Shown one piece after another: positions 12,164 to 54,019 of a stretch of DNA of 64,000 bases (its first letter is position 1; the number at the start of each line of letters is the position of its first letter). The translations under genes and the position numbers were made by a program. The stretch comes from Acidobacteriota bacterium. Its GTDB lineage: Bacteria; Acidobacteriota; Thermoanaerobaculia; Multivoradales; JBCCEF01. The stretch spans positions 1 to 64,000 of the forward strand of contig JBCCHV010000013.1 of the NCBI GenBank assembly GCA_039028635.1, in the 5' to 3' direction. The notes beneath the pieces were generated by a model. That model made no database searches. It was given only the letters and a program-made list of their open reading frames with translations, and was not told the DNA's origin.

Positions 12164-13381
12164 TCAGGAGCTGCTGCCGTCCCAGCCTTCGAGATCGCCC
12201 GACTCGAAGCCATCGCTGAAGATCGAACTCGAGTTGCCGAGGGTGTTCTTCCACACCCAAACCCGCTCGACGCTGTCGATCAGGAAGAAGACGTTGTTCA
12301 CCTCGTCATAGAGAACGCGGCCGTAGACCGGCGAGCCGTTGGGCCCCCCGGAGGGGGCGTACTCGGTCCAGGTTGCGCCCTCGATGTCGTAGTTGAAGAC
12401 GCTGCCACTGGCGCTGCCGCCGAACAGCACCAGCTGATCGTTGACGGCATCGTAGGCCAGTCCCGCGCCGGAGGTGTTGCCAGGTAGATTCTCGGCCGAA
12501 ACGATGCGGAACTGATTGCGATCGATGTCGTAGGCCGAGAGATTGTCGTCGCCCCCGTAGTCCCCGCCGTAGCTCCAGATCCAGCGCCGCGTCGGGTCGA
12601 GAACGCTGACCCGCTCGATGCCCGGGGGACCGTCGTCGTTGACCAAGGACCAGGCGTGGTTCGAAAAGTCGAGGCTCCAGATTCCTTGGGCACTGAGCTG
12701 GAACCAGAGATCGGCCTGCGGGTCGTACTCGCCGGAGGCCCCCGGCTGGGACAGCCAGTAGTCGATGTCGCCGCTCTGCAAGGCCGTGCGGTCGGTCCAG
12801 GCTGCGCTTTCGAAGTCGAAGGTCCAGAGATCGCCGTAGGAGCTGCCGTTGTTGAACGGCGGAGCGTCGGCGGTGGCGCCGGAGTAGGCGAAGAACAGGC
12901 CGAGGTGCTCGATGTAGTCGAGGTGGTCGTAGGTGTGCCGCGACACCGGGTCGCCGTTCAGGTAGCGATAGCCGGGGGTGGTGGAGAACTGGCAGACGGA
13001 CGTCGGGGGCGTCACCAGGTCCCAGGAGAGATCGTTGAGATCGAAGGCCAGTAGCTGGTTGCCGAAGTAGTCGTTGTGACCGCCGCCCCACAGCACGATG
13101 CGCCGGCGATCGGTGTCCAGCGTGGCGCCGGAGTAGGAGAAGATTCCCGGCAGCTCACATCCGATCGAGTAATCGCAGCAAGCGATGTCCATGGCGCCGA
13201 CACTGGTCATCGCCGAGCTCGGCAGGGCCGACCATTGGCCGTCCGGCAACGCCGCCAACTGCGGGTTGGGGACCTGGGCCACGAGCAGGCCCGCCGTCGA
13301 CAGCAGGAGGGCGGACGACAGCCCCAAGATTCTGCCCTTGCGAGGGTGCGGCTGCCGGTCGATTTTTCGGGTCGTGCTCAT
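12164..13381 (-). CDS. secreted Kelch/galactose-oxidase-like protein with DGFESG tail
   Basis: 405 residues. The start at 13381 (MSTTRKIDRQ) is preferred over 13405 because GGAGG lies just upstream. A signal peptide (LGLSSALLLSTAGLLVAQ) is followed by Kelch-type motifs such as RRIVLWGGGHNDYFGNQLLAF, DLWTFDFESAAW and QLVLFGGSASGSVFNYD, which predict a beta-propeller in the envelope or outside the cell. The last 19 residues begin IFSDGFESG with a Trp at position 14; the same tail occurs on three other exported proteins here. Its 3' end faces that of the upstream small membrane protein, only 3 bases away. Enzyme activity cannot be inferred. Confidence 0.88.
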   Translation of the reverse strand: MSTTRKIDRQPHPRKGRILGLSSALLLSTAGLLVAQVPNPQLAALPDGQWSALPSSAMTSVGAMDIACCDYSIGCELPGIFSYSGATLDTDRRRIVLWGGGHNDYFGNQLLAFDLNDLSWDLVTPPTSVCQFSTTPGYRYLNGDPVSRHTYDHLDYIEHLGLFFAYSGATADAPPFNNGSSYGDLWTFDFESAAWTDRTALQSGDIDYWLSQPGASGEYDPQADLWFQLSAQGIWSLDFSNHAWSLVNDDGPPGIERVSVLDPTRRWIWSYGGDYGGDDNLSAYDIDRNQFRIVSAENLPGNTSGAGLAYDAVNDQLVLFGGSASGSVFNYDIEGATWTEYAPSGGPNGSPVYGRVLYDEVNNVFFLIDSVERVWVWKNTLGNSSSIFSDGFESGDLEGWDGSSS

Positions 13382-13597
13382 GGCGCCTCCGCTGCTGTCA
13401 TTCATAGATCAACATAACAGCATGAGGGGCTCGGCGTCACTCGAACCCGAGAAGAGCCTTCGCGCGGTGTCGTATTCGGCGTGAAGATTGTCGTCCTTGG
13501 ATTTCTACCCACGGTGCAGCCCTGCAAGACTGAATTTCACGGGAGAGCGTCATGGGCGGTCTTCCTCAACAGGTCGAACCGACTCGGGAGAACCGCG

Positions 13598-18354: not shown

Positions 18355-19296
18355 TCAGGGCACGGTCATCGACCAAGCGTTGGTGTTGCCGGACTCGAAG
18401 CCGTCCTCGAACAGAATCGGAATGGCGACGAAGCCGCGTCGGGTGCCCTTGGCATCGACGAACTCGCCGGTGAGCCGGCCTGCTTCGTTGATGCCCACCG
18501 ACAGAGTGCCGGCGGCTCCCGGAACGTCGCAGGGCTCGAAGACGCCAGCCGTCCAGACAAACCCATGGGGAGATCCGCCAGCGTCGAAGTAGGTGCCGAC
18601 GACATCCCCGGTGTTGTTGATGCCGCCGGTCACGGTCGAAACGGCGCCGGGAAAATCGAGAGTCGAGTAGGCACCGGCGGTGCTGCGCCGAAATCCGTGG
18701 CGCGAGCCGGTGGTGTCGTCGTAGTGGCCGACGATCTCGCCCAGGTCGTTGATGCCGCGGGCGCGGGACTCGGCGGCCCCCGGAACATCGACGTTGATCA
18801 GGGTGCCTCCGAGTCGCGCGAAGGCGTGTCGAATGCCGTCAGATCCCTCGTATTCGCCGACGATTTCCCCAAGATTGTTGACGCCGCGAATCACCGTCTG
18901 ATCCGCTCCGGGATACTCCACCCAGCTGTACAGGCCGCCGATGAGCTCGAAACCGTCCTGACCACTCGAGCGCAGGGCCGAGCCGACGACGACGCCGGCG
19001 TCGTTGATGTCGAAAGCGCGGCGGTCGCCGATGGAGGTCGGTGGATCGATGTCGACGATGGTCCCCGCACAGCGCCTAATCGCGTGGGCGGTCGAGAAAT
19101 CGCTGGCATCGGTCTGGTAGTAGCCGGCTTCGCAACCGGTGTCGTTGATCCCCCGGCCACCGGTGATCGGGGCTCCCGGAACCTCGAAGATCTCGAACTC
19201 GTAGCTGCCGGCGTCGACTGTCGACGCCAGAATGATCAGGCTGGCGGTCGCCGCTCCGGTGCAGGCTCTCCGCAGGAGACATCGCCCAATCGACAT
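18355..19296 (-). CDS. secreted HAF-repeat protein with DGFESG tail
   Basis: 313 residues with a signal peptide (ATASLIILASTVDAG). The body consists of tandem HAF-type extracellular repeats, each with a core such as GINDLGEIVGHYDD, GVNNLGEIVGEYEG or GINNTGDVVGTYFD followed by HGF or HAF; at least six units are visible. Together they should form a beta-propeller. The function of this repeat family is unknown. The last 19 residues start LFEDGFESGN with Trp at position 14, identical in layout to three other exported proteins in this window. It is convergent with the VOC gene, 23 bases away. Confidence 0.9.
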   Translation of the reverse strand: MSIGRCLLRRACTGAATASLIILASTVDAGSYEFEIFEVPGAPITGGRGINDTGCEAGYYQTDASDFSTAHAIRRCAGTIVDIDPPTSIGDRRAFDINDAGVVVGSALRSSGQDGFELIGGLYSWVEYPGADQTVIRGVNNLGEIVGEYEGSDGIRHAFARLGGTLINVDVPGAAESRARGINDLGEIVGHYDDTTGSRHGFRRSTAGAYSTLDFPGAVSTVTGGINNTGDVVGTYFDAGGSPHGFVWTAGVFEPCDVPGAAGTLSVGINEAGRLTGEFVDAKGTRRGFVAIPILFEDGFESGNTNAWSMTVP

Positions 19297-49698: not shown

Positions 49699-51192
49699 CT
49701 AAGGCAGGACGGTCGACCAGGCGCCGGTACTGCCGGACTCGAAGCCGTCGCCGAAGATCTCGCTGCAGTCGCCGGGACCGCAAACCTCGAAGGCGCCGAG
49801 GTCGAGGGGATCATCCACCGGCCGAGGAGTGCTGCCCTGGTGCTTGCGGTAGTGGCGCACCGGCAGGTGATCCGGCATCACGGCGGCCGGCAGGGCGGCG
49901 CCGGCATCCTCGCTGCCGGACCCCGACAGGAGGCCGAAGTCCTGACTGCCGAGGTCAAGGAAGCCGGGATCACTGCCGGTGATTCCGGTGTTGTCGTCGA
50001 TCACGACGCCACCGCCGGAGCTGTGGTTTTCGACGAAGCCCGGTTTGGTCCAGTTGCGGCTCAGGGAGAGGGTGCCGTCGCCGTTGAGCATTGCCAGACG
50101 CGAGCCGGTGGCGGTGGTGAAGAGGATGTTCTGGCGCACGTCGGCGTTCTCCGCCGCCGACGACAAACGCAGCAGCGTGGTGTTGCCGCTGCGGGTCGAG
50201 ACCACCGTGTTGTGGAAGAAGTAGAGGTCGCCCTGCCGGTAGTTGGCGAGCGTGCCGCTGTCACCACCGTAGTGGACGACCTGGCTGTTGCCGGCACCGT
50301 CGGGCTCGATCAGCACGTTGCCGTAGACGAAAGTCTCCCGATACCTCGGATCGTTGATCAGGGTGCTGCTGCCGGACTCCACCAGGTCGAGCTGTCGATT
50401 GCCGCCCTCGATCCAGTTGTAGCGCACCACCAAACCGGCCGAGCGGTCCTTCAGGTTGTTGCCGCCGGCGCCGCTGCGCAGCGGCCCGAAGCGATTCTCC
50501 TGGTAGGTGATGCCGAGGGCTTCGGTGTAGCTGTTGTGCTCGAAGATGCTGCCCACGATGCCGTTGTCGTAGAGGTGGTTCCCTGTGATCAGCACGTTTT
50601 GGGTCTGGCCGCCGAAGGCGCCGATGAACAGTCCGTTGCCCGAGTCGTGGAGCACACAGTCTCGGATCGTCAAGTGCTCGGCTTTTTCGACGTAAATGGC
50701 CGCCGCATTGCTCGAGTAGGTCTGGCTCGAGCCGCCGTCGTCGGTGAAGGTAAAGGGCGGTCGGCCGGAGCGAATCTCCAGGCCCTCGATCACCAGGTGC
50801 CCGGGCAGCCCGTCCGGCGGCGTGTTCGAGCCGCCGATCTTGATCACGCCGCGAACCTCGTTCCAGAAGTTGAGGCCGCTCGCCGTCACCGCGCCGTTGC
50901 CATCGATCACCGGTTGTTCGCCGTTGGGGCCGGGCAGCCCGCGAATCACGATCGGCTGGGTCGCGGTGCCGCGGCGGTTGATCACCCATTTCTCGGCGTA
51001 GGGCGTCGCGCGCCAGTGAATCAACACGCGATCACCGGCTTGGAGAGTCGCCCAGGGGACCTCGCCGATGGAGGTCGCCGCCTGCCCCGGACCGACGTGG
51101 TAGTCGGTGGCCGAGGCGGCGACGGAGAGAAAGCAGCCAATGACCGCGGTGACGAGAGTGCGGCGCAGCGGCCGGAGCGTGATCAAATCCAC
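49699..51192 (-). CDS. secreted parallel beta-helix protein with DGFESG tail
   Basis: 497 residues from a GTG with GAGAGGA upstream and a signal peptide (LVTAVIGCFLSVAASA). Right-handed beta-helix coils dominate from about 110 to 400, with ladder motifs such as HLVIEGLEIRSG, HLTIRDCVLHDSGNGLFIGAF and NVLITGNHLYDNGI, as in pectate-lyase-like proteins. Catalytic residues of a known lyase family cannot be assigned. The last 19 residues begin IFGDGFESG with Trp at position 14. It probably binds or cleaves polysaccharide outside the cell. It follows the DinB-like gene on the same strand, 16 bases after its end. Confidence 0.88.
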   Translation of the reverse strand: MDLITLRPLRRTLVTAVIGCFLSVAASATDYHVGPGQAATSIGEVPWATLQAGDRVLIHWRATPYAEKWVINRRGTATQPIVIRGLPGPNGEQPVIDGNGAVTASGLNFWNEVRGVIKIGGSNTPPDGLPGHLVIEGLEIRSGRPPFTFTDDGGSSQTYSSNAAAIYVEKAEHLTIRDCVLHDSGNGLFIGAFGGQTQNVLITGNHLYDNGIVGSIFEHNSYTEALGITYQENRFGPLRSGAGGNNLKDRSAGLVVRYNWIEGGNRQLDLVESGSSTLINDPRYRETFVYGNVLIEPDGAGNSQVVHYGGDSGTLANYRQGDLYFFHNTVVSTRSGNTTLLRLSSAAENADVRQNILFTTATGSRLAMLNGDGTLSLSRNWTKPGFVENHSSGGGVVIDDNTGITGSDPGFLDLGSQDFGLLSGSGSEDAGAALPAAVMPDHLPVRHYRKHQGSTPRPVDDPLDLGAFEVCGPGDCSEIFGDGFESGSTGAWSTVLP

Positions 51193-51207
51193 TGCCGTCC
51201 TCTCGGA

Positions 51208-51771
51208 TCAGTTCTGGGGTTGGCTCCAGGGCGGCACGATGCCCATCGAGCGGGTGTAGGCGATCGCCTGACCGAGGTGCTCGTGGGCGTGGCCGAGGAG
51301 CACCATGTAGTAGGCCCGCTTGGGCTGCGGCGCCCCGAAGAGCTGGACCTCCGTGTCGAGGTCTTCGAGGGAAGCGAGGGCCTGGGTGACGTAGGCGAAG
51401 GACTCCTCGAGCTTTGCGATGACCTCTTTCTTGGTGGTGATGTCCTTCTCCAACTGCTGCAGGGTGGCGTACGGATTGTCGCCCATCTCGAGGCCTTCCG
51501 GCGGCGTCGCGCCGAGCGAAACCGGCAGCAGGAGGTTGGCGCCGACGATGTGCATGTAGACCTCGCTGACGGTGCGCACCTCGACGTTCGGGCGCCAGCC
51601 GAACATGTCTTCCGGGGTGGCTTCGGCCAGGGCGACGATCTTCTTGGCCGTCGCTTCGAGGTTGGCGTTGACGGACGCCTTGAGGGCCTCGTCGCCGCCT
51701 TCGGCGAAGGCGCTCGGCGCCAGAGCGAGGATTAGCATGAGGGTGACCGGTACGAGCTTGCGGTATTTCAT
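51208..51771 (-). CDS. exported DinB-family protein
   Basis: 187 residues with a signal peptide (LVPVTLMLILALAPSAFA). The four-helix DinB/YfiT-like fold is indicated by the His ligands in VSEVYMHIVGANLL and LLGHAHEHLGQAIAY. Members bind a divalent metal and include thiol-dependent enzymes; many have unknown roles. Export is less common for this family. It is divergent from the beta-helix gene at 52010 and precedes the beta-helix gene 49699-51192, possibly as a two-gene unit. Confidence 0.88.
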   Translation of the reverse strand: MKYRKLVPVTLMLILALAPSAFAEGGDEALKASVNANLEATAKKIVALAEATPEDMFGWRPNVEVRTVSEVYMHIVGANLLLPVSLGATPPEGLEMGDNPYATLQQLEKDITTKKEVIAKLEESFAYVTQALASLEDLDTEVQLFGAPQPKRAYYMVLLGHAHEHLGQAIAYTRSMGIVPPWSQPQN

Positions 51772-52009
51772 CAGTTCGGCTCCGTGGCTGTCTGGGTCCG
51801 GGGCTTGAAACCTTGGTGGGGCCGACCGGCGGGCGGTCGGGCAGTTTGGAGTCTATCGCGCTGCCCTCGGACCGCTCGCCGCGACCTCGCTGCTCGGCTC
51901 GGCTCGGGTGAAGGTCTGCCTCGGCCCGAGTTTCGTATTCTTGGATGCCGAGGGGTCGCCGCCGGGTGCTCGTCGCGGGTGTCCCGGGAGCAGAGCCCGG
52001 CGAAAAACC

Positions 52010-54019
52010 ATGGTCGAGTCCACGAGAGTCTTCGGAAGCCGGCGTTCGATGCGATGGGCCGCGGCTGTCGCCACGATCCTGCTGACCTCGGTCCTGGCCG
52101 TCGCGGTCTGCGGCGAGCCCGATCGCGGCCCTCGCGCGGCGGCCGCCGCCGGGCAGCAGCAAGCCTCGGCGGAAAATCTCGTGCAGCGCTTCCCGGCGCC
52201 GCCGAACGCCCGGCCGAGCCAGCGATTCTCGCTGCGGGTCGAGGGGCAGCCGGTGTTCGTGGAAGAAGATCGGCGGGTCAGCTTCGCGCACTTCGCCTTC
52301 GCCGGCGAGGTGGTCGTCGAGGTCGAGCTCGACGAGCCCTTCGAGAGCTTCACCCTCAGCCCGGCGCGATCCGAGATCTCGGCGCAGATGGAAGGCCGCC
52401 TCCTGACCTTCACCCTGCGCCGTCCCCAGCGCTTGGTGCTGCACGAGGTAAACGGCGAGGAAGCGGACTTCATCCTCGAGGAACGACTGCTGATCTTCGC
52501 CGATCCGATTCCGGAGCCTGCCGAGCAGGTGGCACCTCCGCCCTGGCGACGGTCCAGCGAGCTCGCCATCGACGACGGTGGCGAGGTCGACGTCACGGCG
52601 GCGATTCAGAACGCCCTCGACGCGCTGTCGCAGGCCGGCGGCGGCACGCTGGTGATGGCGCCGGGTCTCTATCGCGTGCAGTCGCTGTTCCTGCGCGACG
52701 ACGTCGCCCTTTACCTCGAAGGCGGAGCGCGCCTGCAGGCTTCCGACGAACCGTCCGAAGAGGACGCCATGATCAAGTTCTTCGGGGTCGACAACGCCCA
52801 CCTCCTGGGGCCCGGGTCGGTGGATGCCAATGGCGTTTTCCTGCGCTATCAGCGCGGCAAGTCCTGGTCCATCGTGCGTGCCGACAACGCTTCCAACAGC
52901 AGCCTCGACACGGTGACCTTGCTCGACCCGAGCGCCTTTGCGGTGTGGATTCGTGACTCCGAGCGGTGGCGCATGACGCAGACCAAGCAGATCGACTTCG
53001 CCAACCGCGACCTGGAGAGCAACGGCGGCGAGGACGGGATCGATCCGGACGCCTCGCGCCACGTGTTGATCGAGCAGTGCTTCGTCTATGCCGGCGACGA
53101 CGCCACCGCGATCAAGGCGATCAGCCCCCGCTGGCCGGTGATCGAGGACATCACCCTGCGCTCGAACGTGATCTTCAACGCCGCCTTGGGCTCTGGCCTC
53201 GGCATCGGCAGCCAGCTCGAACGCAGCCATCTGCGGCAAATCACCTTCGAGAACAACGATGTGGTGGCGGCGCGCTTTCCGCTCGACGTCAGCATGCGTC
53301 AGGCAACCTCCGGAGAAGATGACGACCCACTGCTCGAGGAGGTCTGGTTCCGCGGCAACCGTTTCGGCAAAAGCCGGGGCTCGGCGGTGTTTCGCGCCCA
53401 GGTGGCGAGGCGGGGAATCTTTCGCGACTTCGTGTTCGAGAACCTCGCCTTCGCGCCCAACCAGGATGGCAACGGTCCCCGGCTGCTGAGCTTCGACCAA
53501 GGCGCGATCACCGGCTGGACCTTCGATGGCGTCGAGCTGGCCTCGGGTCTGGTCGATGGGGTCGGTGACTTCGAAGAGCTCGGCTCAGGGGTCAGTGGCC
53601 TGAGCTTCGCGGACAGCGATCCAGTGGTGGTCGAGGTGCGGGCGTCGGAGGTCGCCTTCACGGAGCGGGACGGCGGCGCGCGAGGTTTTCGCGTGCGCCG
53701 CAGCGCTGACCCCTCCGGCCCGCTCACGGTGCCCTTCGCCCTGCGAGGTACGGCTCGAGAGGGTGACGACTTCGAGCCCCTCGGCCGGGCGGTGACCTTC
53801 CCTTCGGGGGAGAGCGAGGTGTTGATCGTCGTTCGGCCGCGGCGCGACGGGCTCGTCGAAGGCGGGGAAACGCTTCTTCTCACGCTGCACAACGACCACG
53901 GGACGGGCTTCATGGTGGGGCCCGAGTCGCAGGCCCAGATCCTGCTGGTCGATGCCGACCTGTTCGTCGACGGTTTCGAGTCCGGCGATACCAGCGCCTG
54001 GAGCGACGAGCAGTTCTGA
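52010..54019 (+). CDS. secreted GH28-like beta-helix protein with Calx-beta-like domain and DGFESG tail
   Basis: About 669 residues from the ATG at 52010 (an ATG at 52049 is an alternative). A signal segment (WAAAVATILLTSVLAVAVC) precedes an N-terminal beta-domain, then a right-handed beta-helix of the polygalacturonase type from about residue 180 (VDVTAAIQNALDALSQAGGGTLV). GH28-like sites are visible as DGIDPDAS, GDDATAIK and GSGLGIGS; key residues are only partly conserved, so the activity is uncertain. A Calx-beta-like domain follows, then the 19-residue tail LFVDGFESGDTSAW. It probably acts on a polysaccharide outside the cell. Confidence 0.87.
   Translation: MVESTRVFGSRRSMRWAAAVATILLTSVLAVAVCGEPDRGPRAAAAAGQQQASAENLVQRFPAPPNARPSQRFSLRVEGQPVFVEEDRRVSFAHFAFAGEVVVEVELDEPFESFTLSPARSEISAQMEGRLLTFTLRRPQRLVLHEVNGEEADFILEERLLIFADPIPEPAEQVAPPPWRRSSELAIDDGGEVDVTAAIQNALDALSQAGGGTLVMAPGLYRVQSLFLRDDVALYLEGGARLQASDEPSEEDAMIKFFGVDNAHLLGPGSVDANGVFLRYQRGKSWSIVRADNASNSSLDTVTLLDPSAFAVWIRDSERWRMTQTKQIDFANRDLESNGGEDGIDPDASRHVLIEQCFVYAGDDATAIKAISPRWPVIEDITLRSNVIFNAALGSGLGIGSQLERSHLRQITFENNDVVAARFPLDVSMRQATSGEDDDPLLEEVWFRGNRFGKSRGSAVFRAQVARRGIFRDFVFENLAFAPNQDGNGPRLLSFDQGAITGWTFDGVELASGLVDGVGDFEELGSGVSGLSFADSDPVVVEVRASEVAFTERDGGARGFRVRRSADPSGPLTVPFALRGTAREGDDFEPLGRAVTFPSGESEVLIVVRPRRDGLVEGGETLLLTLHNDHGTGFMVGPESQAQILLVDADLFVDGFESGDTSAWSDEQF

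Follow-up and report, generated by a model that had tools for sequence, protein, structure and literature searches.

Four exported proteins with a common C-terminal tail

The stretch of Acidobacteriota DNA analysed here, 64,000 nucleotides long and referred to below as the window, encodes four exported proteins that end in the same short tail, built around the motif DGFESG and closed by the stop codon. Position numbers for these four carriers are those of the window. On the reverse strand lie an exported Kelch β-propeller protein of 413 residues (12164..13405), whose tail is IFSDGFESGDLEGWDGSSS (12167..12223), an exported HAF-repeat protein of 313 residues (18355..19296; TIGR02913, 60.9 bits), whose tail is LFEDGFESGNTNAWSMTVP (18358..18414), and an exported right-handed β-helix protein of 497 residues (49699..51192; PF13229), whose tail is IFGDGFESGSTGAWSTVLP (49702..49758). 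The fourth carrier, on the forward strand, is an exported protein combining GH28 and Calx-β domains (52010..54019), with a likely ATG start at 52010, the signal peptide MVESTRVFGSRRSMRWAAAVATILLTSVLAVAVCG and the tail LFVDGFESGDTSAWSDEQF (53960..54016). The initial annotation had picked out these four as exported proteins in which one tail follows unrelated folds, each with a signal peptide or signal-like segment; the coordinates and all four folds are confirmed, and signal peptides are present in four out of four. Each of these tails comprises 19 residues before the stop, as had been claimed, while as a rule this length is only the commonest one (see below). In the four window proteins the tail itself is covered by no Pfam or NCBIfam model.

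A recurrent suffix on exported proteins of one order

Every coding site for DGFE-x-G in the 6.28-Mb genome to which the window belongs (labelled G000; contigs and loci carry the labels C and L) was fetched and read in its frame. This gave 89 sites, against three for the same pattern read backwards, and comprised 76 C-terminal tails, five internal copies of the full motif and eight chance-like matches. The tail class is defined by the tryptophan together with F or L at position −2, and yet just those eight of the 89 raw sites lack the full motif. The main form among the 76 tails is [IL]F-x-DGFESG-[DN]-T-x-A-W-[ST]-x4-stop. A relaxed pattern, F-x-[DE]-x-F-[DE]-x-G-x4-W, finds 88 sites in the whole genome and none in the reversed control; eight of the nine sites it adds are tails, with the variants DSFE, DNFE, DKFED and EGFE, giving a total of about 84. 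The tail occurs far above chance. The internal copies include two in Rhs-like proteins, one right behind a signal peptide and one between two domains. In the Rhs/YD-repeat-like proteins G000:C14:834 (L053) and G000:C90:17482 (L096), IFRDGFE-x-G-x4-W stands in mid-protein and is followed by a Gly-rich stretch.

The distance from the aspartate of the motif to the stop is 16 residues in 62 of the 76 tails and varies from 13 to 30 across this genome; the tryptophan may be the last residue in relatives (L190). Outside the search pattern, F is found at −2 in 74 tails, W at +10 in all 76 and I or L at −3 in 69; further conserved positions are S at +4 (69/76), T at +7 (53/76), A at +9 (49/76) and V at +14 (44/76). 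A 19-residue window scoring over 1.6 for a hydrophobic helix occurs in the last stretch of a single tail, so that 75 have no such helix, while net charge is negative in 75 of the 76 and the tails do not close on a basic end. In an AlphaFold model of a tailed DUF1501 protein the tail is of low confidence, at a predicted local distance difference test score (pLDDT) of about 50.

The proteins that bear the tail are strikingly diverse. Sixty-eight carriers match 89 Pfam families, the commonest of which is found in just six of them, and they include β-helices, FG-GAP and lactonase propellers, subtilases, M28 peptidases, glucose/sorbosone dehydrogenases (GSDH), GH44, GH85, DUF11 and DUF1501 proteins. 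With starts checked by eye, 66 of the 67 carriers long and complete enough to be judged have a recognisable Sec, lipoprotein or Tat signal; the remaining one is a multicopper-oxidase-like protein (C22) whose N-terminal half lies in another frame. A strict automatic signal rule, which is home-made and therefore only a rough control, is passed by 47 of 59 tailed proteins vs 167 of 393 neighbour genes (Fisher p = 9e-8). No cytosolic tail carriers were found among the 67 and the distance to the C-terminus is nearly fixed, these being the two points on which the initial annotation had made a sorting tag depend. Recurrent neighbour genes of the tails in this genome are mostly kinases and regulators, with no machine among them.

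Within families the tail behaves as a suffix. A DUF1501 homologue in G022 reads ...GFLGGGSPS-IFADGFESGTLGAWSSVV at its end, while in G021, G006 and G028 the homologues stop at GFLG/GFMG. Of two tandem paralogues of the window's genome (G000:C14:62464-64826; L054) that share 53% identity, one has the DGFESG tail at its end and the other IPTL-CTERM, and a DUF11-type pair (C65, C6) of about 50% identity over 810 residues likewise differs in its tags. The tail therefore takes the same place on the protein as a known sorting tag, and its presence on otherwise unrelated proteins, coupled with its presence or absence within one family, is the behaviour of a sorting tag. In our view the tail is probably a functional tag on exported proteins, a reading with good support.

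Among 59 genomes of the same Acidobacteriota order the number of tails ranges from 0 to 143 per genome, the reversed control being almost without matches, and the tail is present through nine families. Its frequency can change sharply between close relatives: the full motif was found in none of the members of genus g4 where tested, vs about 80 matches in the family mate G036, and in genus g7 the two full-motif matches of G007 compare with about 95 in G040. Genus g4, which has many species (G004, G012, G019 and others), is also without exosortase, sortase, over-cut-off rhombosortase and a PilQ-type secretin match, and its envelope may differ broadly. In 198 genomes spread over the phylum, the only matches outside the order are single ones in three genomes. 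Named genomes with the strictest form of the tail are nearly all Acidobacteriota metagenome-assembled genomes (MAGs), several of them labelled Thermoanaerobaculia; the single match in a Hyphobacterium MAG may stem from contamination. The motif is C-terminal in 80 of 81 matches from 10 other tail-rich genomes plus the named loci, with the same modal distance of 16; since the pattern used to find the named loci contains the stop, only the other genomes provide an independent test (32/33 C-terminal). Plasmids gave no motif match, and among phages the motif occurs in three Halorubrum virus records. In Halorubrum virus CGphi46 (L335, HALG_00046) it lies inside the protein as EDGFESGDLSAW, before an unrelated, apparently β-rich stretch. 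No description of the motif was found in the literature searched, a search that left most subscription journals outside. The tail is almost confined to its own order and is explained by no described sorting system.

A ConA-like domain linked to the motif in relatives

In tail-poor relatives the motif is often not terminal and runs instead into a domain of 190 to 260 residues. AlphaFold predicts a ConA-like β-sandwich for this domain (mean pLDDT 85.5), with Foldseek matches to 8q2a (TtX122B), ulvan lyase and PL7 lyases. The two arrangements can be compared within a pair of GSDH homologues, of which C60:8572 of the window's genome stops at the tail whereas L114 (68.6% identity, 471 aa) continues into a domain of about 245 residues; L106 and L126 likewise continue into the domain, in contrast to the tail-ending C11:60864, C2:122446 and L327. 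In a second arrangement the two elements occupy adjacent genes. The gene that immediately follows a tailed DUF1501 protein encodes the domain in L116, L117 and L121, which represent three genera (232 to 245 bits), and in L128 (G006, family f6) the gene behind a tailed metalloprotease-like protein does so. The ConA-like genes of L117 and L121 start 3 to 4 nucleotides after the tail stop, and have a signal peptide of their own and no motif; in L116 the start is ambiguous, perhaps through a frameshift. The partner gene of L128 starts 13 nucleotides after the tail stop, behind a Shine-Dalgarno-like GAGGAG, and L128:222-1481 encodes a secreted ConA-like domain plus three SLH domains. In L117 (830-860, reverse strand) the tail closes with the codons GGA GGA GGG, which would double as a Shine-Dalgarno site for the ConA-like gene behind them, an arrangement that suggests possible translational coupling of the two. 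A third arrangement is seen in L102:1486-3024 (G011), a single protein in which the ConA-like domain directly follows the signal peptide and the tail forms the C-terminus; such a protein could self-assemble. Overall, half of the motif loci from tail-poor genomes (15 of 30) contain the domain, and it occurs nowhere in the other locus groups searched, about 1.9 Mb.

Because they are fused in one chain or placed side by side in an operon, the tail and the ConA-like domain are likely partners (the Rosetta stone argument). The best mechanism on hand, to which we assign a probability of roughly 45%, is that the tail would be a docking tag bound by a ConA-like partner on a surface-anchored protein. 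The cargo would cross the inner membrane by Sec or Tat, using its own N-terminal signal, and outside the cytoplasm the tail would act as a non-covalent docking peptide for a lectin- or PL7-like β-sandwich domain carried by a secreted and anchored protein. With the partner anchored, as by the SLH domains in L128, the tail would therefore retain its cargo at the cell surface or in the matrix. Tail-rich genomes such as that of the window, where the motif stands alone at protein ends in contrast to the relatives in which it directly precedes a PL7- or LamG-like β-sandwich, would have an equivalent partner elsewhere. In its proposed logic, such a short cargo element with a β-sandwich receptor on an anchored protein would resemble donor-strand or dockerin-cohesin docking. 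That binding proceeds by completion of the β-sandwich is a guess. A more specific version, which we regard as unlikely, makes the tail a plug: the separately secreted ConA-like domain, missing this segment, would be completed in trans by the tails of many cargo proteins acting as donor strands, and these would thus be fixed to SLH-anchored or similar surface proteins. If so, the L102 protein could polymerise head to tail.

Several observations weigh against a docking tag of this kind. The five motif copies of the window's genome that are internal or near an N-terminus would not be predicted for a pure C-terminal tag. A ConA-like partner was found near none of the tails in the loci of this genome (which cover about 17% of it), nor in other tail-rich loci. 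Where the motif and the domain share a chain, AlphaFold leaves the motif (residues 1-20) at a pLDDT of 51 to 59 and places no strand there, in predictions made with ten sequences only. A common ancestry of neighbouring genes, instead of binding, could lie behind the fusions and adjacent pairs, three of the four adjacent cases being DUF1501 homologues, and it was through the motif itself that 10 of the 15 positive loci, all ten being fusions, were detected.

Alternative readings and known sorting systems

Of the alternatives to a docking tag, the one that fares best, although unlikely, is that an export machine of the outer membrane, such as a type II secretion system (T2SS)-like apparatus, recognises the tail as a secretion signal and perhaps leaves it on the released protein. 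The export of all carriers, many of which are extracellular-type enzymes and propellers, would fit this role, as would a T2SS-like cluster in the window's genome with F/E/D-like and pseudopilin genes, identified from gene order and leader sequences rather than by scanning each gene for its family. The mechanism by which the T2SS recognises its cargo is unresolved (PMC10128026). A similar cluster is found in the tail-free G004 and secretin matches occur in 59 of 59 genomes; the apparatus therefore does not track the tail. The T2SS secretin was rejected as a partner, the strong GspD-like matches being PilQ of a type IV pilus operon. Lipoprotein-type and Tat-type carriers bear the tail too, the T2SS is not known to use a linear tag elsewhere, and a secretion signal would leave the link to the ConA-like domain unexplained.

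Cleavage of the tail by a dedicated sorting protease or transpeptidase, following the logic of sortase, exosortase or rhombosortase, appears improbable. Its appeal lies in the resemblance of the tail to the PEP-CTERM/exosortase systems, including IPTL-CTERM and exosortase H: in both, a C-terminal suffix is gained or lost within families on dozens of unrelated exported proteins, and paralogues in the window's genome carry either the one tag or the other. GlyGly-CTERM with rhombosortase and MYXO-CTERM with myxosortase share the same many-to-one layout. However, each of the latter two tags consists of a motif, a hydrophobic helix and a basic end, whereas the tail described here presents an acidic motif and then ends, and it equally lacks the transmembrane helix and basic cluster of PEP-CTERM. 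The C-terminal domains of type IX secretion (Por secretion tails) are likewise tags with no transmembrane helix, but they belong to Bacteroidota and have roughly 70 or more residues, compared with about 19 here, and no type IX model matched the four window proteins. Nor did any curated CTERM model of NCBIfam match these four proteins at E values up to 10; among the 25 most frequent families of the 68 tailed proteins there is none except the SVAGG family (a GlyGly-CTERM protein), weakly matched by three tailed proteins with a best E of 0.0035. The initial annotation was right that the tail looks unlike PEP-CTERM, MYXO-CTERM and LPXTG and has no hydrophobic helix; its acidity and the lack of a known tag model among the NCBIfam families listed also set it apart.

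The distribution of the candidate enzymes points the same way. Exosortase H is encoded in the window's genome (C39, L242:7654-8942; TIGR04177, 100.9 bits against a cut-off of 86), where the membrane protein associated with it is weakly matched too, and is commoner in genomes with ten or more motif matches (24/30) than in those with fewer (7/29). Yet this enzyme has its own tag in IPTL-CTERM, of which at least 16 proteins score over cut-off elsewhere in the same genome, and the tail-rich G003 and G018 have no PF09721 exosortase whereas the tail-poor family f6 has one; exosortase was rejected as the tail's partner on both grounds. Rhombosortase, over cut-off in just seven of the 59 genomes, and sortase, present in 18 of the 59 relatives and absent from the window's genome, were rejected as well. 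A rhombosortase (G000:C22, L316:3970-6797; 120 bits) lies directly behind a 730-residue protein with a GlyGly-CTERM-like end, and this pair is a third C-terminal sorting system in that genome. The sortase-like, rhomboid-like or secretion-channel partner envisaged in the initial annotation thus finds no counterpart among these candidates, whose occurrence does not match that of the tail. Of its broader proposal, a recognition tag for secretion, surface attachment or processing, what finds support is a tag that recurs on exported proteins with unrelated folds; covalent processing is not supported, the evidence pointing rather to a ConA-like partner.

No more probable than cleavage is the reading of the tail as a passive relic: once the first segment of a ConA-like domain, it would have been orphaned, carried to other proteins by domain shuffling and left with no present function. 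The same motif does begin a full domain in homologous proteins, and its position before a different, β-rich-looking stretch in the Halorubrum virus would be in keeping with shuffling. It would not be expected of a relic, however, that about 84 copies keep W, F, [IL] and the length on proteins of 89 Pfam families, nor that genus g4 lacks the full motif. Moreover, where the ConA-like gene is free it opens with a signal peptide and lacks the motif, so that fusion is at least as likely as truncation. Insertion of a DNA repeat at gene ends is very improbable and was rejected on codon analysis and stop codon usage: the likeness of the tail DNA noted in the initial annotation is real, but is mostly that expected from identical residues and codon bias, since most synonymous positions fit background codon usage with a modest excess of identity only at G+1, F+2 and A+9, three stop codons are used (TAG 39, TGA 32 and TAA 5, n = 76) and nearly all full motifs lie in frame at the ends of open reading frames.

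If borne out, the tail would represent a class of C-terminal tag for exported proteins in outer-membrane bacteria that dispenses with the motif-helix-basic layout of LPXTG, PEP-CTERM and GlyGly-CTERM. In this Acidobacteriota order a single genome may have as many as about 140 proteins marked by it. How exported proteins of unrelated kinds get to the cell surface or remain there, a question that T2SS cargo also poses, can be addressed with the tail as a short, testable peptide, and the idea can be tested now that a candidate partner domain is named.

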